Source: Flavobacterium ginsengisoli (GTDB lineage Bacteria; Bacteroidota; Bacteroidia; Flavobacteriales; Flavobacteriaceae). From it: a DNA stretch of 64,000 bases. The DNA lies in the NCBI RefSeq assembly GCF_029625315.1, contig NZ_CP121110.1, forward strand, positions 3,543,001 to 3,607,000. The letters are read 5' to 3'. The translations under genes and the position numbers were made by a program. Positions within the stretch are counted from its first letter, which is position 1. The number at the start of each line of letters is the position of its first letter. The notes under the pieces are model-generated. The model made no database searches and had not been told where the DNA came from. It was given only the letters and a program-made list of their open reading frames with translations. Below are positions 4,461 to 64,000 of the stretch, one piece after another.

Positions 4461-4707
4461 AAGGGAATGAGAAAGCTAGATACAACCCTTATAAAAAAGA
4501 AGCACTGGGACTGATAAAGCTTGTTTGTTCCCATAAAAGACAAAGCATAAGGGATTGATTCAGCTGCAGTAACCCTAAAAAAACAGAGCACTGGGACTAA
4601 TAAAGCTTGTTTGTTCCCATAAAAGACAAAGCACAGGGATTGATTCTGCTGAAATGTAACCCTTAAAAAAACAGAGCATTGGGATTAATAAAGCTAGTTT
4701 GTTCCCA
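4461..4707. repeat. array of six related hairpins at 43-45 nt spacing
   Basis: Within the 661-base gap between the GNAT gene and atpG lie six short inverted repeats starting at 4461, 4506, 4549, 4592, 4635 and 4680. Two forms alternate. Type A (4506, 4592, 4680) has a TGGGA/TCCCA stem around a loop with ATAAAGCTTG. Type B (4461, 4549, 4635) has an AGGG/CCCT stem around a loop with an AGCT core. The linkers are also alike (AAAAGACAAAGCA after A, AAAAACAGAGCA after B), so the basic unit is about 43 nt, paired into an 86-88 nt higher-order repeat. The third type A copy has drifted slightly. No reading frame runs through it. Function is unknown; see findings. Confidence 0.8.
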
Positions 4708-4740
4708 TGAAAGACAAAGCACGCAGAGTTATCTGTCTAT

Positions 4741-24715: not shown

Positions 24716-26026
24716 ATGATTCGCCTTTTTGATATTTCCCTTCAATTAAATGGTTTTCCGATAAAGAAAGCTAAAGCCGAATTGGACAAAATTGTTCATT
24801 TTTCTGAAGAAGAATTTACGGTTTTTCTCGAAAACAAAAAGAAGGAAATTGTTGATTTTCATCTTAAAAACAATTCTTTTTATGCAGCATTAGCTGGAAA
24901 TACAACTGCCGAAAATTGGGAAAATCTGCCGATTTTAAACAAACAGAATTTACAAAAACCCCTTGAAGAAAGACTTTCAAAAGGTTATTCTAAAAAATCT
25001 GTTTATCTCAACAAAACCTCTGGATCAAGCGGAACTCCTTTTGTTTTTGCCAAAGACAAATATTCACATGCCTTGACTTGGGCTTCCAATATTATGCGAT
25101 TTGACTGGTTCGGAATTGATTTTAATCATTCGTATCAAGCTCGTTTTTACGGAATTCCAATGGATTTTATTGGCTATCAAAAAGAACGTTTCAAGGATTT
25201 TTTGACACATCGATTTCGTTTTCCAGTTTTTGATTTATCTGATGAAGTTCTAGAAAAATTTTTTCAAAAATTCAAAACAAAAAAATTCGATTACCTCAAC
25301 GGTTATACAAGTTCTATTGTTTTATTTGCCAAATTTTTACAACAAAAAAATATCGTTTTAAATGAAATTTGTCCAACTTTAAAAGCTTGTTTTGTCACTT
25401 CGGAAATGCTCTTTGAAGCGGATAAAAAACTGTTAGAAAAACAATTCGGCATTCCGATTATTAGCGAATACGGCGCTTCTGAATTGGATTTGATTGCTTT
25501 TGAAAATCCGCAAGGCGAATGGCAAGTAAATGCAGAAACTTTGTTTGTAGAAATTTTAGATGAAAACAATAATCCTGTTCCACATGGAACAGAAGGAAAA
25601 ATTGTGATTACGTCTCTATTCAACAAAGCAAATCCTTTCATTCGATATGAAATTGGCGATATTGGAATTTTGGATGAAAAAAGTACGCCTCAAAAACCAA
25701 TTCTTAAAAAACTTATCGGCAGAACAAATGATGTTGCAATTCTTCCAAGTGGGAAAAAATCGCCAGGTTTGACCTTTTATTATGTAACTAAAAGCATTAT
25801 TGAAGATGATGGAAACGTAAAAGAATTTATCATCAAACAAACCCAAATTGATACTTTTGAAATTGAATATGTAGCTGAAAAAGAATTAGTTTCAGAACAA
25901 ATTGAAAAAATAAAACAAGCAATTGATTTGTATTTAGAACCCAATCTAAATTTCACTTTTACTCGAAAAACAGTTTTAGAAAGAACCAATCGCGGGAAAC
26001 TGAAACAGTTTAAATCTTATTTGTAA
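24716..26026 (+). CDS. adenylate-forming enzyme, CapK/PaaK-like
   Basis: A 436-residue member of the phenylacetate-CoA ligase (PaaK/CapK) group. The ATP phosphate-binding motif is KTSGSSGTPFVFAKD (about residues 100-115), with the adenylate-binding EYGASELDLIAFEN and the C-terminal domain containing LIGRTNDVAILPSGKKSPG. CapK-type members act in surface polysaccharide pathways, which fits its place next to glycan genes, but the acid substrate is unknown. It is divergent from purD. Confidence 0.82.
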   Translation: MIRLFDISLQLNGFPIKKAKAELDKIVHFSEEEFTVFLENKKKEIVDFHLKNNSFYAALAGNTTAENWENLPILNKQNLQKPLEERLSKGYSKKSVYLNKTSGSSGTPFVFAKDKYSHALTWASNIMRFDWFGIDFNHSYQARFYGIPMDFIGYQKERFKDFLTHRFRFPVFDLSDEVLEKFFQKFKTKKFDYLNGYTSSIVLFAKFLQQKNIVLNEICPTLKACFVTSEMLFEADKKLLEKQFGIPIISEYGASELDLIAFENPQGEWQVNAETLFVEILDENNNPVPHGTEGKIVITSLFNKANPFIRYEIGDIGILDEKSTPQKPILKKLIGRTNDVAILPSGKKSPGLTFYYVTKSIIEDDGNVKEFIIKQTQIDTFEIEYVAEKELVSEQIEKIKQAIDLYLEPNLNFTFTRKTVLERTNRGKLKQFKSYL

Positions 26027-52581: not shown

Positions 52582-52598
52582 TATCAGATAAATTTATT

Positions 52599-52627
52599 AA
52601 AAGCGCTTTTATAAGCGCTTTTTTTTA
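52599..52627 (+). terminator. terminator of glnS
   Basis: AAAAGCGCTT and AAGCGCTTTT close a stem with a T-run after it, starting 17 bases past the stop. Confidence 0.88.
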
Positions 52628-53798
52628 TTATATAGGTTAACTATTAAAAAGTAAAATTTTATAATTTTTATAGATTAAAACTGACTTTCATAAATTTAAT
52701 TTAATCGAAAATAAAATTTTATTGGATAAGGAATTCATTTTTTTATTTTAAATCTATTAGAAAGCTTTATTTTGATTATGTACTTTTTTTATGTCTAATT
52801 TTTGTTTTAAATCCTTAATAATAAAATTTAATTATTTAAAATGTGTGATTTTTAATATTTTATCTATTATTAGTAAAATCTATTAATTTTAATATTTTTA
52901 TTTGTTTTATATATTAAAAGTGACTTTCATAATTTAATTTTAAAGAAGAATAAAAAATATTCGAGTAGAGAAGACCTTTTTTTACTTTTCATTCATTAAA
53001 ACTCTTTATTTTATTTTTTTACTTTTTTGCTTCCAGTTTTCTTCTAAAAAAACTAAAATTAAGGTTTTTTCTTATTTTTTATATTTTTGACTTTAATTTT
53101 TATAATCATAAGTTTTGATTATTATTATTGTCTAAAATTTAGTTTGTATTTATTATTTATAAAACTAACTAAAGAATATTATATAATAGTTTTTAATTAT
53201 TTACAAAGCCCTTTATTTTAGTTTTTCTATTTATAAATTTTTATTATAGATTTTTTAAAAGTTTAGTTTTTAATTATTATTTATAAAAATGATTGAATTA
53301 TTAAATATAATAGTTTTTGTATATTAATTTTAACCTTCATAAATTAATTTTAAGGCATTTTTTAAACGTGTTTGATAGATAACTCGTTTTTGTGATAATC
53401 GTTTATTTAAGAGCTTTATTTTAGTTTTTACTGTTATTTTAGTCAGTTTAACGGGTTGTTAACACACAATTGTTTATAAAACTGCTATTTTTAACTCAAT
53501 ACCAAAAGTCAGAGATGATTTTTGTAAAAAATTAAAATTTGCCGTAAAGAATCTAAGTTGAAATTTATTGTTTTTAGAAACTCGTAATTTTTATAACAAT
53601 AAGTTTTCAAAACTGATTTCCTAAAAAGACAATTTTATGTTCTCATTTTTATTATGATGTAATTCTGATAATATTTCCCGTAAAAGATATTTTTTCAAAT
53701 TGTGTCATAATATACAAAATACCATAATGTTGAATTTGAGTGAAAGTTTAGTTTTTAAATTTCAGGTCTGACAATTTTTAATTTAAATCTAATTTATC
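52628..53798. repeat. 1.2-kb AT-rich gap with about four degenerate 205-240-base repeats
   Basis: No gene is seen in this gap, the AT-richest part of the window. The phrase GACTTTCATAAATTTAATTT recurs at 52683 and 52922, with a related ACCTTCATAAATTAATTTTA at 53334. The phrase CTTTATTTTAGTTTTT (with changes) recurs at 52764, 53001, 53208 and 53413. The spacings (237, 207, 205) indicate four decayed units. Nothing in it looks like a promoter, except the last 100 bases ahead of 53799, which are not clear either. Confidence 0.6.
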
Positions 53799-56518: not shown

Positions 56519-58024
56519 TTATAAAGTTTCAATTGCTTTCTGGATTCTAGAAATAGTTTCTTCTTTTCCAATGATTTCAACAATGTCAAATAGGTGAGGA
56601 CCTTTTAGAGCTCCAACTAAACTTAGACGGAAAGGTTGCATTACTTTACCCATTCCGATTTCGTTTTTGGTTAACCAATCTTTTACGATTGCTTCAATAT
56701 TTGCAGAAGTAAAATCTTCGATATTTTCTAAAACAGAAATCAGTTCTTGCATTAAAGTAGGAGTTTCTTCTTTCCAGTTTTTACTTGCTTTCTCATCATA
56801 TGATGTTGGCGCTTGGAAAAAGAAATCAGTTAAATCCCAAAATTCAGAAACGAAATTTGCTCTTTCTTTGATAAGTGATACAATGCGAGTTGTCACTTCG
56901 AGCGGAGTCGAGAAGCCTTTTTCTTCTAAAATAGGAGAGAAGGTTTTTGCTAAATCAGCATCATTTTGTTTTACTAAATATTGGTGATTGAACCATTTGT
57001 TTTTCTCTGGATCAAATTTTGCTCCAGCTTTGTGAACTCTGTTCAAGTCAAAAGCTTCTGCTAATTCTTCTAAAGAAAATAATTCTTTATCAGTTCCATC
57101 ATTCCATCCTAAAAGAGCAAGGAAGTTTACAACTGCTTCTGGAAAAAATCCTTTTTCTCTGTAACCAGATGAAACACCTTCTTCAGTTTTCCATTCTAAA
57201 GGAAATACTGGGAATCCCATTTTGTCTCCATCTCTTTTTGATAATTTACCATTTCCAATTGGTTTCAAAATCAAAGGTAAGTGAGCAAATTCTGGAGCTT
57301 CCCAACCAAATGCTTTGTATAATAAAACGTGAAGTGGCATAGAAGGCAACCATTCTTCACCACGAATTACATGTGAAGTTTCCATCAAATGATCATCAAC
57401 AATATTCGCTAAATGGTACGTTGGCATTCCGTCACTTTTGAATAAAACTTTATCATCCAAAAGATTAGTTTCAAACTTCACATCTCCACGAATGATATCT
57501 TTCAAATGTAAAGTTTCATCAACTGGAGTTTTAAAACGAATTACATAATGTTCTCCATTTGCAATTCTTTTAGTAGTTTCTTCTGCAGAAATTACCAATG
57601 ATGTATCTAGTTTTTCACGATTGTGGTGATTGTAAATAAATGTTTTTCCTTCAGCTTCGTGTTGTTTTCTATGTGCATCCAAAGCTTCAGGAGTATCAAA
57701 TGCATAATATGCCCAACCAGAATTGATCAACTGATCTGCATATTGTTGGTATAAATCTTTACGTTCGCTTTGTCTGTATGGACCAAATTTTTCATTTTTC
57801 CCAACCGTTTCTTCAGGAGCAATTCCTAACCATTCAAGAGCTTCCATAATGTAAGCTTCTGCACCAGGAACAAAACGAGTCTGATCTGTATCTTCAATTC
57901 TCAGATAAAAAACACCATTATGTTTCTTTGCAAATAAATAATTAAATAAGGCAGTACGAACTCCGCCAATATGTAACGGTCCAGTCGGACTTGGTGCAAA
58001 ACGCACACGAACTTGCTTTGACAT
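56519..58024 (-). CDS. gltX: glutamate--tRNA ligase
   Basis: Charges tRNA-Glu. The 501-residue class I synthetase has the HIGH motif in FAPSPTGPLHIGGVRTALFN and the KMSKS equivalent KLSKRDGDKMG (about residue 255), a central editing-free catalytic domain and a C-terminal anticodon-binding half. Length is typical. A well-matched promoter lies right upstream. It is convergent with no other gene. Confidence 0.96.
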   Translation of the reverse strand: MSKQVRVRFAPSPTGPLHIGGVRTALFNYLFAKKHNGVFYLRIEDTDQTRFVPGAEAYIMEALEWLGIAPEETVGKNEKFGPYRQSERKDLYQQYADQLINSGWAYYAFDTPEALDAHRKQHEAEGKTFIYNHHNREKLDTSLVISAEETTKRIANGEHYVIRFKTPVDETLHLKDIIRGDVKFETNLLDDKVLFKSDGMPTYHLANIVDDHLMETSHVIRGEEWLPSMPLHVLLYKAFGWEAPEFAHLPLILKPIGNGKLSKRDGDKMGFPVFPLEWKTEEGVSSGYREKGFFPEAVVNFLALLGWNDGTDKELFSLEELAEAFDLNRVHKAGAKFDPEKNKWFNHQYLVKQNDADLAKTFSPILEEKGFSTPLEVTTRIVSLIKERANFVSEFWDLTDFFFQAPTSYDEKASKNWKEETPTLMQELISVLENIEDFTSANIEAIVKDWLTKNEIGMGKVMQPFRLSLVGALKGPHLFDIVEIIGKEETISRIQKAIETL

Positions 58025-58187: not shown

Positions 58188-61100
58188 TTGAAAACATCAT
58201 CTGCAATATATCAAAAGTTAGAGGCTTTCATTAAGAAATATTATACCAACGAACTGATAAAAGGGATATTACTTTTTACCGGTTTTGGATTATTATATTT
58301 TCTATTTACGCTTTTTGTGGAGTACTTTCTTTGGTTAAAACCATTAGGAAGAACTTTACTATTTTGGTTATTTGTCGGAGTTGAAGTTTTCCTTTTAGTC
58401 CGTTTAATTCTTTTTCCTTTGTTCAAGTTGTTCAAACTTCAAAAGGGAATTGATTATAGTCAGGCTTCAAAAATTATTGGAAATCATTTTACAGAAGTGA
58501 GTGATAAGCTTACTAACTTTTTGCAATTGTCTTCTGAAAATAATTCAGAAAGTTCAGAATTGGTTTTAGCTTCAATTGAGCAAAAAGCAAATTCATTACA
58601 GCCAATTCCTTTTGGAAATGCAATCAATTTTAAAGCTAACAAAAAATATTTACCATTGGCTTTAGTTCCAATTTTGCTTTTTGCTGTGTTTTATATTTCT
58701 GGAAATAGTAATGTAATTTCTCAAAGTTTGAATAGAGTAGTGCATTTCAATTCTGCATTTTTGCCACCAGCTCCATTTAAGTTTGTGGTTTTGAATTCGA
58801 ATTTACAAGCTGAACAAAATAAAGATTTCGTTATTAAAATGGAATCTGTTGGAAATATAGTTCCAGAGAATGTTATGATTCATATTGGAAATGAAAGCTA
58901 TTTTATGGAATCTTCTCAACCTGGAAAGTTTGAATTTAAAGTGGAGAAACCAGCTGAGAATATTCAATTTTCTTTTGAAGGAAATTCTGTTGTTTCAGAA
59001 GAATACGAATTGAAAGTAATCACAGTTCCGTCTATTGCAAACTTCGAAATGGTTTTAAATTTTCCTTCTTATCTAAAGAAAAAATCAGAGACAATTCAAG
59101 GAACTGGAAATGCAATTGTACCTGAAGGAACGACCGTAACTTGGAAAATGAATACCAAATCTACACAAGAAGTTGAATGGAAAAGAGATAATGAAGTATT
59201 TAAGTTCAATAAGGTTGAAAATGACTTTAAATTGAGTAAAAATATTAGTCAAAACACAGAATATCAAATTCTTACGTCTAACGATAAGGTTAAAAACTAC
59301 GAAAAACTCGATTACCAGCTCTCTGTAATCAAAGATCAGTATCCAACTATCAATGTTGGTCCTGCACCTGATAGTTTGAAGCTAGATAAGAACTATATTC
59401 TAGGAAGATTAGGTGATGATTATGGACTTTCTAAATTACAAATTGTGTATTACGAGCGTAACAAACCTCAATCTGCTAAGCGTGGAAACATTCCTGTTAA
59501 GGCTGGAGTATTTGATCAGTTTGTTTTTAATTTTCCAAGTAACCTTCCAGTAGAAGAAGGTGTTTCATACGAGTACTATTTTGAAGTTTTTGATAACGAT
59601 GCACCACACGGATTTAAGTCTACAAAGTCTTCTACGTTTTCAGATCGTGTAGCTACAACAGATGAAATTCAGGATCAAGAATTACAACAGCAAAATCAAA
59701 ACATCAATAGTTTATCTAAATCTTTGAAGAACCAAACAAAGCAGATTTCAGAAATGGATAAGCTTCAGAATACTGGAAAAGAAAAAGATAATTTAGAGTT
59801 TAAAGATCAGCAGAAGATCAATGATTTTATCAAACGTCAGAAACAACAAGACGAAATGATGAAGCAATTTTCTGAAAAGATGAATCAGAATCTAGATAAG
59901 TTTAAAGAGGATAAGAAAGATAAAACTGCCGAAGATTTACAAAAGCGTTTAGATAATGCACAGAAAGATTTAGAAAAGAATCAGAAATTATTAGACGAGT
60001 TGAAGAACTTAAACGATAAATTAAACAGTGAAGAGCTGTTTGATAAGATTGAAAAGTTCAAGCAAATTAGTAAAAACCAATCTCGTAATCTAGAACAATT
60101 GGTTGAGTTAACCAAACGTTTTTATGTTTCAAAGAAAGCAGAACAGGTTGCTGAGAAATTAAATAAACTGTCAGAACAACAGGAACAGTTATCAAATAAA
60201 GAGAAAGAAAATACTAAAGAAAAACAGGATGAAATCAATAAATCTTTTGATAAGATTCAGGAAGATTTAAAAGATTTGAAAGAGGAAAATAAGACCTTAA
60301 AGAAACCTTTGGACATTCCATCTGATGCTTCAAAAGAGAAAGATGTAGATAATGATCTTAATAAAGCTTCTGAAGAATTGAGTAAAAAGAATACTTCTGG
60401 AGCTAAACCAAAACAGAAAAGTGCTTGCAAAGAAAATGAAGTCTATGGCTCAAGAAATGCAGAGCGAAATGGAAGGTGGAGAACAAGAACAATTGGAAGA
60501 AGATGTAGCAATGCTTCGTCAGATTCTAGATAATCTTTTAGCTTATTCTTTGTCGCAAGAAGATGTGATGAAACAGTTCAAAGCAATGAAATTAGGTTCT
60601 TCTGCATTTACAAAAAACATAAAGATTCAGCAGAATTTGAAACAGCAGTTCAGACATGTTGATGACAGTTTGTTTGCACTTTCGCTACGTAACCCAAAGG
60701 TAGCTGAAGATGTAACTAAAGAAATTGGAAATGTTCAATATAACATGGACAAGGCTATAGAAACTTTAACTGATGTTCAGATTCCAAGAGGAGTTTCACA
60801 CCAACAATATGCAGTTTCATCAGCCAATAAGTTAGCCGATTTCTTAAGTGATTTATTGAATAATATGCAGATGTCTATGTCTAAACCGGGAGCGGGGAAA
60901 CCTAAACCTGGAGACGGACAAGGAATGCAATTGCCAGATATTATTCAGAAACAAAAAGGACTTGCTGATAAGATGAAAGAAGGTATGAAACCTGGACAGC
61001 AATCTGGAGATAAACCTGGAGAAGGTAAAGATGGAAAATCTGGGCAGGGACAAAATGGGCAAGGAAAAGATGGTCAGGGTAAAGAAGGACAAGGTAACAA

Positions 61101-61590
61101 AAGTGGAGATAAAGGTTCTTCGGGTAAAGATGGAAAGAATGGAAAAGGAGAGAAGAACGGTAATGAAGGAGAAGATGGAGAAGGAGATGCTGAAGCTATA
61201 ATGGAGATTTACAAAGAGCAAGTTAAACTTCGTGAAGCACTTCAAAAAGAATTAGCAAAGAAAGGTTTAGACTCTCAAGGTAAATCTGTAATAGATCAAA
61301 TGAAACAATCTGAAAAGCAGATTTTGAACAAAGGATTTAAGAATGAGAACTTGCAACGTATATTAAATATTCAGCAAGAATTATTGAAATTGAATAACGC
61401 AGTTCAGCAACAAGGTCAAGATACACAAAGACAATCTGAAACTAATAAGGCTGAATTTACTAATCGTTCCAATGCTTTGCCAAGTTCACTATTGGAATAT
61501 TTAAACAGTGTAGAGATATTAAACAGACAATCACTACCTTTGCGCTCGAATTTTAATCAAAAAGTTCAAGAATACTTTAATACAAAATGA
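58188..61590 (+). CDS. DUF4175-like membrane protein, apparent +1 frameshift
   Basis: A large envelope protein of about 1133 residues. Three N-terminal membrane helices (about residues 24-45, 57-77 and 153-172) anchor a periplasmic region, then long coiled coils (QQNQNINSLSKSLKNQTKQI; NAQKDLEKNQKLLDELKNLN), a Gly/Lys/Gln-rich stretch (about 900-1000) and a final helical part ending VQEYFNTK. The start is a TTG at 58188, no ATG being near. One base too many at 60420-60427 (TGCTGC to TGCTTGC) breaks the frame; removing it reads QKSAAKKMKSMAQEMQSEME. I recall it as DUF4175; function unknown. It overlaps ybeY by four bases. Confidence 0.8.
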
Positions 61591-62006
61591 TAAATTTTAA
61601 TTACGAAACAGATTTTACTTTAGGAGACGAGCAGGCTTTTAGTGACTGGCTTAGTGCTGTAATTGTTTCTGAAAACAAGAATGAAGGAGAAATCAATTAT
61701 ATATTTTGTGATGATGAGTATCTTCATAAAATCAATGTAGAATATTTAGATCACGACACTTTAACTGATATAATTAGTTTTGATTATTCAGTTGGTAACG
61801 AGTTAAATGGAGATATTTTTGTTTCTGTAGAACGCGTTGCAGATAATGCAAAAGACTTCAATGTTTCATTTGCTGAAGAACTTAAAAGGGTGCTATCTCA
61901 TGGTATACTACATTACTGTGGATACAAAGATAAGTCAGAGGAAGAAGCTCAATTAATGAGACAGAAGGAAGAAGAGAAAATGAAGATGTTTCACGTGGAA
62001 CAGTAA
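61587..62006 (+). CDS. ybeY: rRNA maturation RNase YbeY
   Basis: A zinc endoribonuclease for 16S rRNA 3'-end processing and ribosome quality control. The 139-residue protein has the metal-binding HGILHYCGYKDKSEEE (HGxLHxxGY; the third ligand position holds Lys-Asp instead of the usual Asp-His, so the site looks slightly changed). Its ATG overlaps the DUF4175 stop. The last sense codons contain a parS-type site (KMFHVEQ). Confidence 0.93.
   Translation: MINFNYETDFTLGDEQAFSDWLSAVIVSENKNEGEINYIFCDDEYLHKINVEYLDHDTLTDIISFDYSVGNELNGDIFVSVERVADNAKDFNVSFAEELKRVLSHGILHYCGYKDKSEEEAQLMRQKEEEKMKMFHVEQ
61987..62002. other. parS-type site 1
   Basis: TGTTTCACGTGGAACA, a near-perfect palindrome around CACGTG, inside the end of ybeY. 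Confidence 0.85.
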
Positions 62007-62028
62007 TTAAACATCTTTTTAATACATA

Positions 62029-62044
62029 TGTTCCACGTGAAACG
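62029..62044. other. parS-type site 2
   Basis: TGTTCCACGTGAAACG, the same core with an asymmetric outer base. Confidence 0.85.
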
Positions 62045-62068
62045 TTTTGGATTTTTAAATTTTTATAA

Positions 62069-62084
62069 CGTTCCACGTGAAACA
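62069..62084. other. parS-type site 3
   Basis: CGTTCCACGTGAAACA. Confidence 0.85.
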
Positions 62085-62113
62085 TATCCGAAGAAAATAA
62101 AAGAATTTTACAA

Positions 62114-62129
62114 CGTTCCACGTGGAACG
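62114..62129. other. parS-type site 4
   Basis: CGTTCCACGTGGAACG, a perfect 16-bp palindrome. Confidence 0.85.
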
Positions 62130-62161
62130 TTAATGTAAAGAATTTGAATTAAAGATTAAAT

Positions 62162-62177
62162 CGTTCCACGTGGAACG
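62162..62177. other. parS-type site 5
   Basis: CGTTCCACGTGGAACG, identical to site 4. Confidence 0.85.
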
Positions 62178-62214
62178 ATTTTTTAAGTTTGAATTTGAAA
62201 GAGAAAGAATAGGA

Positions 62215-62230
62215 TGTTTCACGTGGAACA
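62215..62230. other. parS-type site 6
   Basis: TGTTTCACGTGGAACA, identical to site 1. Confidence 0.85.
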
Positions 62231-62249
62231 TGATTTTAAAATGTTCTTT

Positions 62250-62443
62250 GGAAGTTTAGAATGGAAGTTTAGAATGGAAGTTTAGAATGGAAGTTTAGAA
62301 TGGAAGTTTAGAATGGAAGTTTAGAATGGAAGTTTAGAATGGAAGTTTAGAATGGAAGTTTAGAATGGAAGTTTAGAATGGAAGTTTAGAATGGAAGTTT
62401 AGAATGGAAGTTTAGAATGGAAGTTTAGAATGGAAGTTTAGAA
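62250..62443. repeat. 13-bp tandem array A, 15 units
   Basis: GGAAGTTTAGAAT is repeated without change 14 times, and a last unit lacks its final base. It fills the space between parS-type sites 6 and 7. Reading frames through it are artefacts, since 13 is not a multiple of three. Confidence 0.95.
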
Positions 62444-62444
62444 A

Positions 62445-62460
62445 TGTTTCACGTGAAACA
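62445..62460. other. parS-type site 7
   Basis: TGTTTCACGTGAAACA, a perfect palindrome matching the classical B. subtilis consensus. Confidence 0.9.
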
Positions 62461-62473
62461 TTTATTGAAAAGA

Positions 62474-62616
62474 TTCTGTTTGAAAGTTCTGTTTGAAAGT
62501 TCTGTTTGAAAGTTCTGTTTGAAAGTTCTGTTTGAAAGTTCTGTTTGAAAGTTCTGTTTGAAAGTTCTGTTTGAAAGTTCTGTTTGAAAGTTCTGTTTGA
62601 AAGTTCTGTTTGAAAG
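62474..62616. repeat. 13-bp tandem array B, 11 units
   Basis: TTCTGTTTGAAAG is repeated 11 times without change between parS-type sites 7 and 8. Its rotated form GAAAGTTCTGTTT shares 8 of 13 positions with the array A unit GGAAGTTTAGAAT and has the same period. Confidence 0.95.
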
Positions 62617-62628
62617 TAAATAAAAAGA

Positions 62629-62644
62629 TGTTCCACGTGAAACG
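62629..62644. other. parS-type site 8
   Basis: TGTTCCACGTGAAACG, identical to site 2. Confidence 0.85.
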
Positions 62645-62694
62645 TTTTTATTTGTTTTCTGAATTTGAAGATATCAGTTTGCAGGTTTCAGTTT

Positions 62695-62761
62695 GAACTT
62701 GAAACTTGAAACCTGAAACTTGAAACCTGAAACTTGAAACCTGAAACTTGAAACCTGAAAC
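62695..62761. repeat. 14-bp tandem array (GAAACTTGAAACCT), 4.4 units
   Basis: The unit GAAACTTGAAACCT, itself two similar heptamers, is repeated four times plus five bases between parS-type sites 8 and 9. Similar AAACCTGAAAC runs are ahead of glnS. Confidence 0.9.
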
Positions 62762-62770
62762 AAAAATAAA

Positions 62771-62786
62771 AGTTCCACGTGGAACA
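62771..62786. other. parS-type site 9
   Basis: AGTTCCACGTGGAACA, the last site, 62 bases ahead of the mnmG start. Confidence 0.85.
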
Positions 62787-62810
62787 AGAAAAATATAAAT
62801 GTAATTCTAG

Positions 62811-62830
62811 AAACCGCGTTAGCGGTTTTT
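62811..62830 (+). terminator. small hairpin ahead of mnmG
   Basis: AAACCGC, loop GTTA, then GCGGTTTTT. It could end ybeY transcription or act as a leader attenuator for mnmG, whose ATG is 18 bases on. Confidence 0.65.
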
Positions 62831-62848
62831 GGAGAATAATAAAACAAA

Positions 62849-64000
62849 ATGTTTTTAGAAGAATACGATGTTATTGTGGTTGGTGCAGGCCATGCTGGTT
62901 CTGAAGCTGCGGCTGCGGCTGCAAATTTGGGATCGAAAACTTTATTGGTTACAATGAGTTTGCAAAACATAGCACAGATGTCTTGTAATCCTGCGATGGG
63001 TGGAATTGCAAAAGGACAGATCGTTCGTGAAATTGATGCGCTTGGTGGATATTCAGGAATTGTTTCTGATAAGACTGCGATTCAGTTCAAGATGTTGAAC
63101 AAATCAAAAGGACCTGCAATGTGGTCGCCAAGAGTTCAAAGTGATAGAATGCGTTTTGCAGAAGAATGGAGAATGATGTTGGAGGCAACTCCAAATCTTG
63201 ATTTTTATCAAGAGATGGTAAAAGGGTTGATAATCGAAGATGGAAAGATAAAAGGAATTAGAACTTCACTTGGTGTGGAGATTCGTTCCAAATCTGTGGT
63301 TTTGACGAATGGTACTTTTTTGAATGGTTTAATTCATATCGGAGAAAAACAATTCGGAGGAGGTAGAGCAGGAGAAAGTGCTGCAACCGGAATTACAGAA
63401 GATTTGATCAAAGCAGGTTTTGAAGCTGGAAGAATGAAAACAGGAACGCCACCTCGAGTAGATGGACGTTCTTTAGATTATTCTAAAATGAATGAAGAAA
63501 AAGGAGATGCAACGCCAGCTAAGTTTTCTTATTCAGATGTGACTTCTCCGTTAACGCATCAGCGTTCTTGTTACATGACGTATACGTCTTTGAATGTTCA
63601 TGATATTTTGAGAGAAGGTTTTGATCGTTCTCCAATGTTCAACGGAAGAATCAAAAGTTTGGGACCAAGATATTGTCCGTCGATTGAAGATAAAATAAAT
63701 CGTTTTGCGGATAAAGAACGTCACCAATTATTTGTTGAGCCAGAAGGATGGAATACTTGCGAAGTTTACGTAAACGGATTTTCAACTTCACTTCCAGAAG
63801 ATATCCAGTTCAAAGCGCTTCGTTCAGTTGCAGGTTTTGAAAATGTAAAATTCTTTAGACCTGGTTATGCAATCGAATATGATTTCTTTCCTCCAACGCA
63901 ATTAAAACATACTTTGGAAACAAAGTTAGTTGAAGGATTATATTTTGCAGGACAGATTAACGGAACTACAGGTTACGAAGAAGCAGCTTCTCAAGGTTTG
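62849..64000 (+). CDS. mnmG: tRNA uridine-5-carboxymethylaminomethyl modification enzyme, 3' part outside window
   Basis: MnmG (GidA), with MnmE, adds the carboxymethylaminomethyl group to U34 of certain tRNAs using FAD and a folate. The frame is open from the ATG at 62849 to the right edge (384 codons). The FAD-binding start is YDVIVVGAGHAGSEAAAAAA, followed by SCNPAMGGIAKGQIVREIDA with the catalytic-type Cys region, and later GRMKTGTPPRVDGRSLDYS and YFAGQINGTTGYEEAASQGL. All are MnmG marks. The remaining third lies outside. The gene lies just downstream of the parS-type sites. Confidence 0.97.
   Translation, partial: MFLEEYDVIVVGAGHAGSEAAAAAANLGSKTLLVTMSLQNIAQMSCNPAMGGIAKGQIVREIDALGGYSGIVSDKTAIQFKMLNKSKGPAMWSPRVQSDRMRFAEEWRMMLEATPNLDFYQEMVKGLIIEDGKIKGIRTSLGVEIRSKSVVLTNGTFLNGLIHIGEKQFGGGRAGESAATGITEDLIKAGFEAGRMKTGTPPRVDGRSLDYSKMNEEKGDATPAKFSYSDVTSPLTHQRSCYMTYTSLNVHDILREGFDRSPMFNGRIKSLGPRYCPSIEDKINRFADKERHQLFVEPEGWNTCEVYVNGFSTSLPEDIQFKALRSVAGFENVKFFRPGYAIEYDFFPPTQLKHTLETKLVEGLYFAGQINGTTGYEEAASQGL

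Follow-up and report, generated by a model that had tools for sequence, protein, structure and literature searches.

The window analyzed in this study, a stretch of 64,000 nucleotides, covers positions 3543001–3607000 of the Flavobacterium ginsengisoli genome, which is a single contig of 5,414,540 bp. Near the end of the window, ybeY (61587..62006, + strand), coding for the rRNA maturation RNase YbeY (Pfam PF02130; NCBIfam TIGR00043 above cut-off), is followed by mnmG, also known as gidA (62849..64000, + strand, continuing beyond the window; Pfam GIDA; NCBIfam mnmG_gidA above cut-off). Upstream lies gltX (56519..58024, − strand; NCBIfam gltX_bact above cut-off), and MnmG, GltX, GlnS and YbeY all scored above the cut-offs of curated NCBIfam models. 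The gene at 58188–61590 had a weak match to DUF4175, below cut-off. It is present here as two overlapping frames (785 and 402 codons from stop to stop) and as one frame of 1136–1137 codons in all four relatives compared; the split is a frameshift, either real or derived from the assembly. Just 5′ of mnmG, at 62806–62833, a strong RNA hairpin is predicted (−17.7 kcal/mol, z −6.4), whose stem letters were identical in 5 of 6 relatives compared and which may be a terminator-like or leader structure.

The most distinctive feature of this region is a cluster of 16-bp palindromes matching the consensus of the ParB-binding site parS. Nine sites with the core TTYCACGTGRAA had been proposed for the window in the original prediction, and all were present where it placed them: site 1 at 61987..62002, site 2 at 62029..62044, site 3 at 62069..62084, site 4 at 62114..62129, site 5 at 62162..62177 (its dyad extends outward), site 6 at 62215..62230, site 7 at 62445..62460, site 8 at 62629..62644 and site 9 at 62771..62786. 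Site 7 is a perfect TGTTTCACGTGAAACA, and all nine match the strict pattern. The parS-type identity was borne out, and the variants occurred in the numbers given before: TTTCACGTGGAA twice, TTCCACGTGAAA and TTCCACGTGGAA three times each, and TTTCACGTGAAA once. Shuffled sequences had a mean of 0.01 TTYCACGTGRAA sites, and none of 100 shuffles reached nine. Two details of the prediction needed adjustment. Sites 2–9 do occupy the gap between ybeY and mnmG, but site 1 lies inside the end of ybeY, where it overlaps the last codons and encodes part of the MFHVEQ tail of the protein. The proposed extent of 800 bp holds for the nine sites, but the cluster continues beyond the window, with two more strict sites at genome positions 3607787 and 3607877 (64787 and 64877 in window numbering). 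Thus, nine sites precede mnmG and two lie just after it.

The strict 14-mer GTTYCACGTGRAAC occurred 11 times in the genome, and all copies were located within 2.9 kb (3604988–3607890); its reversed control pattern had no copies genome-wide. Many other clusters of this density would have spoken against a single centromere; no second cluster of strict sites was found. With up to three mismatches to TGTTTCACGTGAAACA, there were 40 matches genome-wide, nine of them in the cluster, compared with 47 for a control pattern, and therefore the genome has no overall excess of degenerate parS sites. Four of the 31 mismatch matches outside the cluster were weak parS-like palindromes lying around it, within approximately 48 kb of each other: TGTTCCACATGGAACA at 25576–25591 of the window, and three at genome positions 3613037, 3615821 and 3616050.

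The tandem arrays previously noted between the last sites are real and three in number: a 13-bp array of 15.0 copies between sites 6 and 7 (62249..62443), a 13-bp array of 11.4 copies between sites 7 and 8 (62469..62617) and a 14-bp (2 × 7) array of 4.7 copies between sites 8 and 9 (62696..62761). A second genome of the same species (G074, locus L248) also has 11 sites, while its arrays differ: in place of the 15 copies it has about one, and its two remaining arrays are shorter. This marks the arrays as variable spacers, and most simply they look like recent expansions in the present genome that left the site count unaffected. Spacers among sites 1–6, examined by eye, did not resemble copies of each other. 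Start-to-start spacings were collected from 41 Flavobacterium loci; 147 of them were under 400 bp, with a minimum of 38 bp and a median of 51 bp. Helical phasing of the sites was considered and judged unlikely, as these 147 spacings were scattered broadly. Elsewhere in the window, an imperfect 88-bp tandem repeat (2.8 copies) was observed at 4484–4722.

We examined the position of the cluster relative to the replication origin using 43 stretches of 20 kb, which together represent 0.86 of 5.41 Mb, or 16% of the genome. Both raw GC skew and skew at codon position 3 switched from minus to plus at 3.58–3.59 Mb, and the opposite switch was at 0.83–0.95 Mb, half a genome away. The parS cluster is at 3.605 Mb, so that the 11 strict sites lie 15–25 kb from the skew-defined origin as located by these samples. 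The codon-position-3 score was 6226 at the best origin, compared with 2208 when the origin was forced to dnaA and 3528 when it was forced to parB. This measure was added after the raw skew of another genome, G019, disagreed with its parS position, and both measures are given here. In G019 (21 stretches), codon position 3 placed the origin at 0.92–0.97 Mb, 31–81 kb from parS at 1.00 Mb, whereas raw GC skew placed it at 0.52–0.66 Mb, 0.34–0.48 Mb off. In genome G264 (21 stretches), both measures gave 1.14–1.26 Mb, which is 0.12–0.24 Mb from parS at 1.38 Mb. An independent observation is available for Flavobacterium enshiense: according to passages of its genome report, in a genome rotated to dnaA the skew switch and the origin were found at gltX, 0.71 Mb along (PMC9867689). 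As in that report, a flavobacterial genome rotated to dnaA does not start at its origin. In F. ginsengisoli, gltX is 4 kb upstream of the parS cluster. A similar approach appears in passages of a study of gut bacteria, including the Bacteroidetes Bacteroides caecimuris and Muribaculum intestinale, in which parS sites were mostly clustered and were used together with GC skew to locate the origin, which was not systematically at dnaA (PMC10197239). The same passages report that neither the number nor the position of sites correlated with secondary-diagonal strength, and they contain no mention of Flavobacterium, of sites bracketing mnmG or of site number in relation to genome size (PMC10197239).

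The best candidate for oriC itself, by its AT content, is the 17% GC gap after glnS (52582..53792), although its position is a guess. This 1.2-kb gap contains most of the lowest-GC 100-mers of an 84-kb region. Nineteen of the 41 loci, those belonging to the clade of the present genome, were tested for an AT-rich stretch 3′ of glnS, and all 19 had one. The lowest-GC 300-mer was located 8.2–10.8 kb before mnmG in 25 of 41 loci and elsewhere in the remaining 16. No exact DnaA box TTATCCACA was found in the 84 kb around the window, and the gap after glnS contained no cluster of DnaA boxes.

Genes for parA and parB had been reported as missing from the window, and indeed the only ParB_N match in the genome is at 4.44 Mb. 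This single protein (4.4447 Mb) has a canonical three-domain architecture, with ParB_N, HTH_ParB and ParB_C domains; its residues 38–234 can be aligned with structures of ParB and Spo0J, and both the GERR motif and the helix-turn-helix are retained. A gene for a ParA-type ATPase is located directly upstream of parB, and dapB and a signal-peptidase gene are nearby. The genome that carries the sites thus also encodes a ParA and a ParB with the features expected of the cognate protein, namely the CTPase motif and the helix-turn-helix. Binding sites for Noc were also considered and seem unlikely: the only ParB_N protein scored 239.5 against a cut-off of 315 for the Noc model, and the sites in the cluster have a CACGTG core. 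The parAB genes are usually, if not universally, close to the origin, but here parB is 0.84 Mb from the parS cluster, and dnaA (4.650 Mb) is 1.04 Mb away. Both are unusually far for chromosomal parS. Among 18 genomes searched, ten were single contigs, and in all ten (two with rounded genome sizes) parS was 0.69–1.17 Mb from parB and 0.54–1.59 Mb from dnaA, which makes the separation a property of the group rather than a peculiarity of one strain.

Taken together, the uniqueness of the 11 sites, a skew origin 15–25 kb away and the published origin at gltX indicate that the cluster is very probably an origin-proximal centromere on which ParB is loaded. We consider it highly probable that it is the chromosomal parS array of Flavobacterium, loaded with ParB near the origin and moved by ParA. 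The original prediction of one compact chromosomal centromere agrees with the confinement of all strict sites to one short stretch, and its suggestion of a main ParB loading point is very probably right, given the nearby skew origin and the one three-domain ParB.

Comparison of the ybeY–mnmG region across the genus, proposed earlier as a check, showed the same arrangement. Strict parS sites were present in all 149 Flavobacterium genomes sampled, with 2–12 per genome. We read 41 loci whole, picked from these genomes for long contigs. Locus L213 was left out of the comparisons, as the stretch examined contained no mnmG. All 41 had at least one site before and at least one after mnmG, a site overlapping the end of mnmG being counted as downstream, and in every case the mnmG locus contained all strict sites of the genome. 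In 38 loci the first site started exactly 15 bp before the end of ybeY. These loci held 230 strict sites and six sites with one mismatch, presumably decayed or nascent parS. In a sample of the phylum, 359 of 392 genomes had at least one strict site. Other genera of the family had exactly two sites (18 of 20 genomes) or one (2 of 20), and the rest of the order was similar, with two sites in seven of eight genomes and one site in the eighth; the highest count outside the genus in the phylum sample was seven. In the six two-site Flavobacteriaceae genomes with positions listed, the sites were approximately 1.9 kb apart, and in all three loci read the two sites flanked mnmG, as in the bracketing seen in Flavobacterium. 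These relatives differ in having two sites and no dense array, compared with 11 sites here. At the class level, mnmG was within 3 kb of the sites in 23 of 30 loci and not in the other seven.

The number of sites within the genus was related to genome size (Spearman rho 0.77 over 149 genomes, most with sizes rounded to 0.1 Mb and relatedness uncorrected). At least six sites were present in 31 of 32 genomes of at least 5 Mb and in none of 96 genomes smaller than 4 Mb. Independent contrasts on a 41-genome tree of one gene, mnmG, which itself lies at the parS locus, gave r of 0.67–0.70; the value stayed at or above 0.61 when any one contrast was dropped, and 25 of 33 non-zero contrasts pointed in the same direction. 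The ybeY–mnmG gap also grew with genome size (r 0.47, 40 loci; L235, with a gap of 1575 bp, was excluded). Outside the genus, Bacteroidota with six or seven sites, seemingly the result of separate gains, can have genomes of about 3–3.6 Mb, and a 5.3-Mb member of the family has two sites; therefore, this is a within-genus pattern and not a general law. One possible explanation, which we put forward tentatively and hold to be on the doubtful side, is that where Smc–ScpAB is not detectable, the strength of the centromere is set by parS dose, the 2–12 sites at the single mnmG locus being tuned to the length of chromosome to be pulled by ParA, with parAB and dnaA remote from the origin.

The main alternative accepts the parS cluster as real, and is thus compatible with the centromere reading, but regards the extra sites as neutral passengers of a growing spacer: the repeat-prone DNA between ybeY and mnmG would grow by slippage or duplication, with relaxed intergenic constraint in large genomes. 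We regard this as a serious possibility, only somewhat short of an even chance. It is consistent with the slippage-prone arrays, which differ between genomes of the same species, with the one-mismatch sites found beside strict ones in relatives, and with the fact that elsewhere a single parS often suffices, as noted in passages of a 2020 review (PMC7333895). Besides, among genomes of at least 5 Mb, the size trend was not significant (rho 0.43, p 0.11, n=15). On the other hand, the sites are far more conserved than the spacers. In four relatives picked for sharing the layout of the six-site block, which lies before the arrays, there were 0, 0, 1 and 1 substitutions per 84 nt of sites, compared with 15, 18, 11 and 29, respectively, per 158 nt of spacer. 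The count of 11 sites in both F. ginsengisoli genomes despite their different arrays also argues against neutrality, as does the lack of visible mutual copies among the spacers of sites 1–6. Finally, a control gap between gltX and the next gene, usable in 33 of the 41 loci, showed no increase in larger genomes (r −0.17, p 0.35).

A second alternative is that the array chiefly serves to load an Smc-type condensin, with extra sites folding longer chromosomes. Passages of the same review describe the recruitment of Smc by ParB at parS in model bacteria (PMC7333895). However, searches detected neither the Smc hinge (PF06470) nor ScpA (PF02616) in this genome, and they were likewise negative in 10 of 11 genomes. 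The seven Flavobacterium genomes were all negative for both domains, which makes Smc loading an unlikely purpose of the array; the only exception, G412, from another family of the class, had both. The sensitivity of these searches was imperfect, as 10 of 14 control genomes were positive for the hinge and 9 of 14 for ScpA: Caulobacter was positive for ScpA only, and Thermus and Deinobacterium for the hinge only. DUF4194, which we take to be linked to MksE, was also found in none of the 11 genomes, a weak test given that only 1 of 14 controls was positive. Bacteroides caecimuris and Muribaculum intestinale are likewise described, in passages of the gut-bacteria study, as having no known condensin (PMC10197239). 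A diverged condensin may exist in Flavobacterium, but Smc loading as the chief role of the array is improbable.

It could also be proposed that the dyads act mainly at the RNA level, as hairpins or terminators in the ybeY–mnmG interval. The RNA of site 5 has the potential to fold into a 10-bp stem with a run of Us after it (−12.4 kcal/mol, z −3.68), and pairing at the first four flanking positions was slightly above expectation (0.57 versus 0.53, 0.43 versus 0.35, 0.46 versus 0.38, and 0.40 versus 0.33). However, 99 of the 230 strict sites had no dyad beyond 14 bp, the half-sites were unequal in 151, site 1 lies inside ybeY and further sites are 3′ of mnmG, all of which makes this role very improbable.

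The density of sites had previously been considered closer to that of a plasmid centromere. This part of the original prediction did not hold, as dense chromosomal parS clusters exist in many phyla. A scan of genome contigs for three strict sites with gaps of 20–50 bp found at least 117 such stretches, with actinobacteria, planctomycetes, firmicutes, proteobacteria, acidobacteria and others among the matches listed. We examined 80 of these at least 117 loci: one had nine sites in 800 bp, two had eight and four had seven, two of the latter from Flavobacterium. In the same 80 loci (up to 8 kb each), searched with the proteins of the present genome, ParB was found in 33, MnmG in 30 and both in 10, while 24 had none of ParA, ParB, MnmG and DnaA. 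These co-occurrence counts suggest that the closeness of parS to mnmG is ancestral and that the lack of parAB nearby is a derived condition. A regular array was noted on an uncultured Bacilli contig (L102, 5385–5893), where nine of the 10 parS sites fell on a grid of 55 bp that had one empty slot. One of the closest published systems is that of Myxococcus xanthus, for which passages of a study describe 22 near-identical parS sites in about 3 kb, close to the origin on a large chromosome and served by a chromosomal ParABS system (PMC3899335). There, approximately 4 kb separates the cluster from parA, and approximately 35 kb separates parAB from oriC (PMC3899335), whereas in F. ginsengisoli parB is 0.84 Mb off. 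That the array is a plasmid-type centromere from an integrated element has density alone in its favor and is extremely improbable, since the mnmG address was shared by all 41 genus loci and all 3 other family loci that were read, the array matched nothing in 72,556 plasmid records, and it lies on a 5.4-Mb contig without adjoining parAB. We found no paper on this locus by title or start of abstract in a literature collection without most subscription journals.

How the chromosomal parS array would function can be outlined from the ParABS literature, as covered by passages of the 2020 review (PMC7333895), and from general knowledge of these systems. The single ParB, made 0.84 Mb away beside ParA, would recognize each dyad. 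It would nucleate there, close as a CTP-gated clamp and slide outward over the ybeY–mnmG region. Since neighbouring sites in the 41 loci have their starts at least 38 bp apart, there is room for a dimer on each site, and the many sites would feed one ParB focus, the cargo moved by ParA. With the focus moved in this way, the origin region would be segregated first. In the loci read from other genera of the family, mnmG has a single site on either side; Flavobacterium has gained extra ones, chiefly in the ybeY–mnmG interval and chiefly in large genomes. In cells without Smc, additional sites could raise ParB loading and hence the cargo of ParA. In this view, extra sites may strengthen loading for longer chromosomes.

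The parS centromere as a type is well known; what is unusual here is the distance of the sites from their partner genes and the rise of site number with genome size. Within one genus and at one address (41 genomes), site number changes six-fold, from 2 to 12, tracking genome size. Why some chromosomes have one parS and others many, and what drives clustering, is posed as an open question in the passages of the 2020 review (PMC7333895). As Smc loading is apparently absent in Flavobacterium, ParA-driven segregation may be separable from condensin loading, which could be tested by deletion of sites. If the tuning of parS dose to chromosome length is true, Flavobacterium would provide a natural series for understanding why parS number varies.
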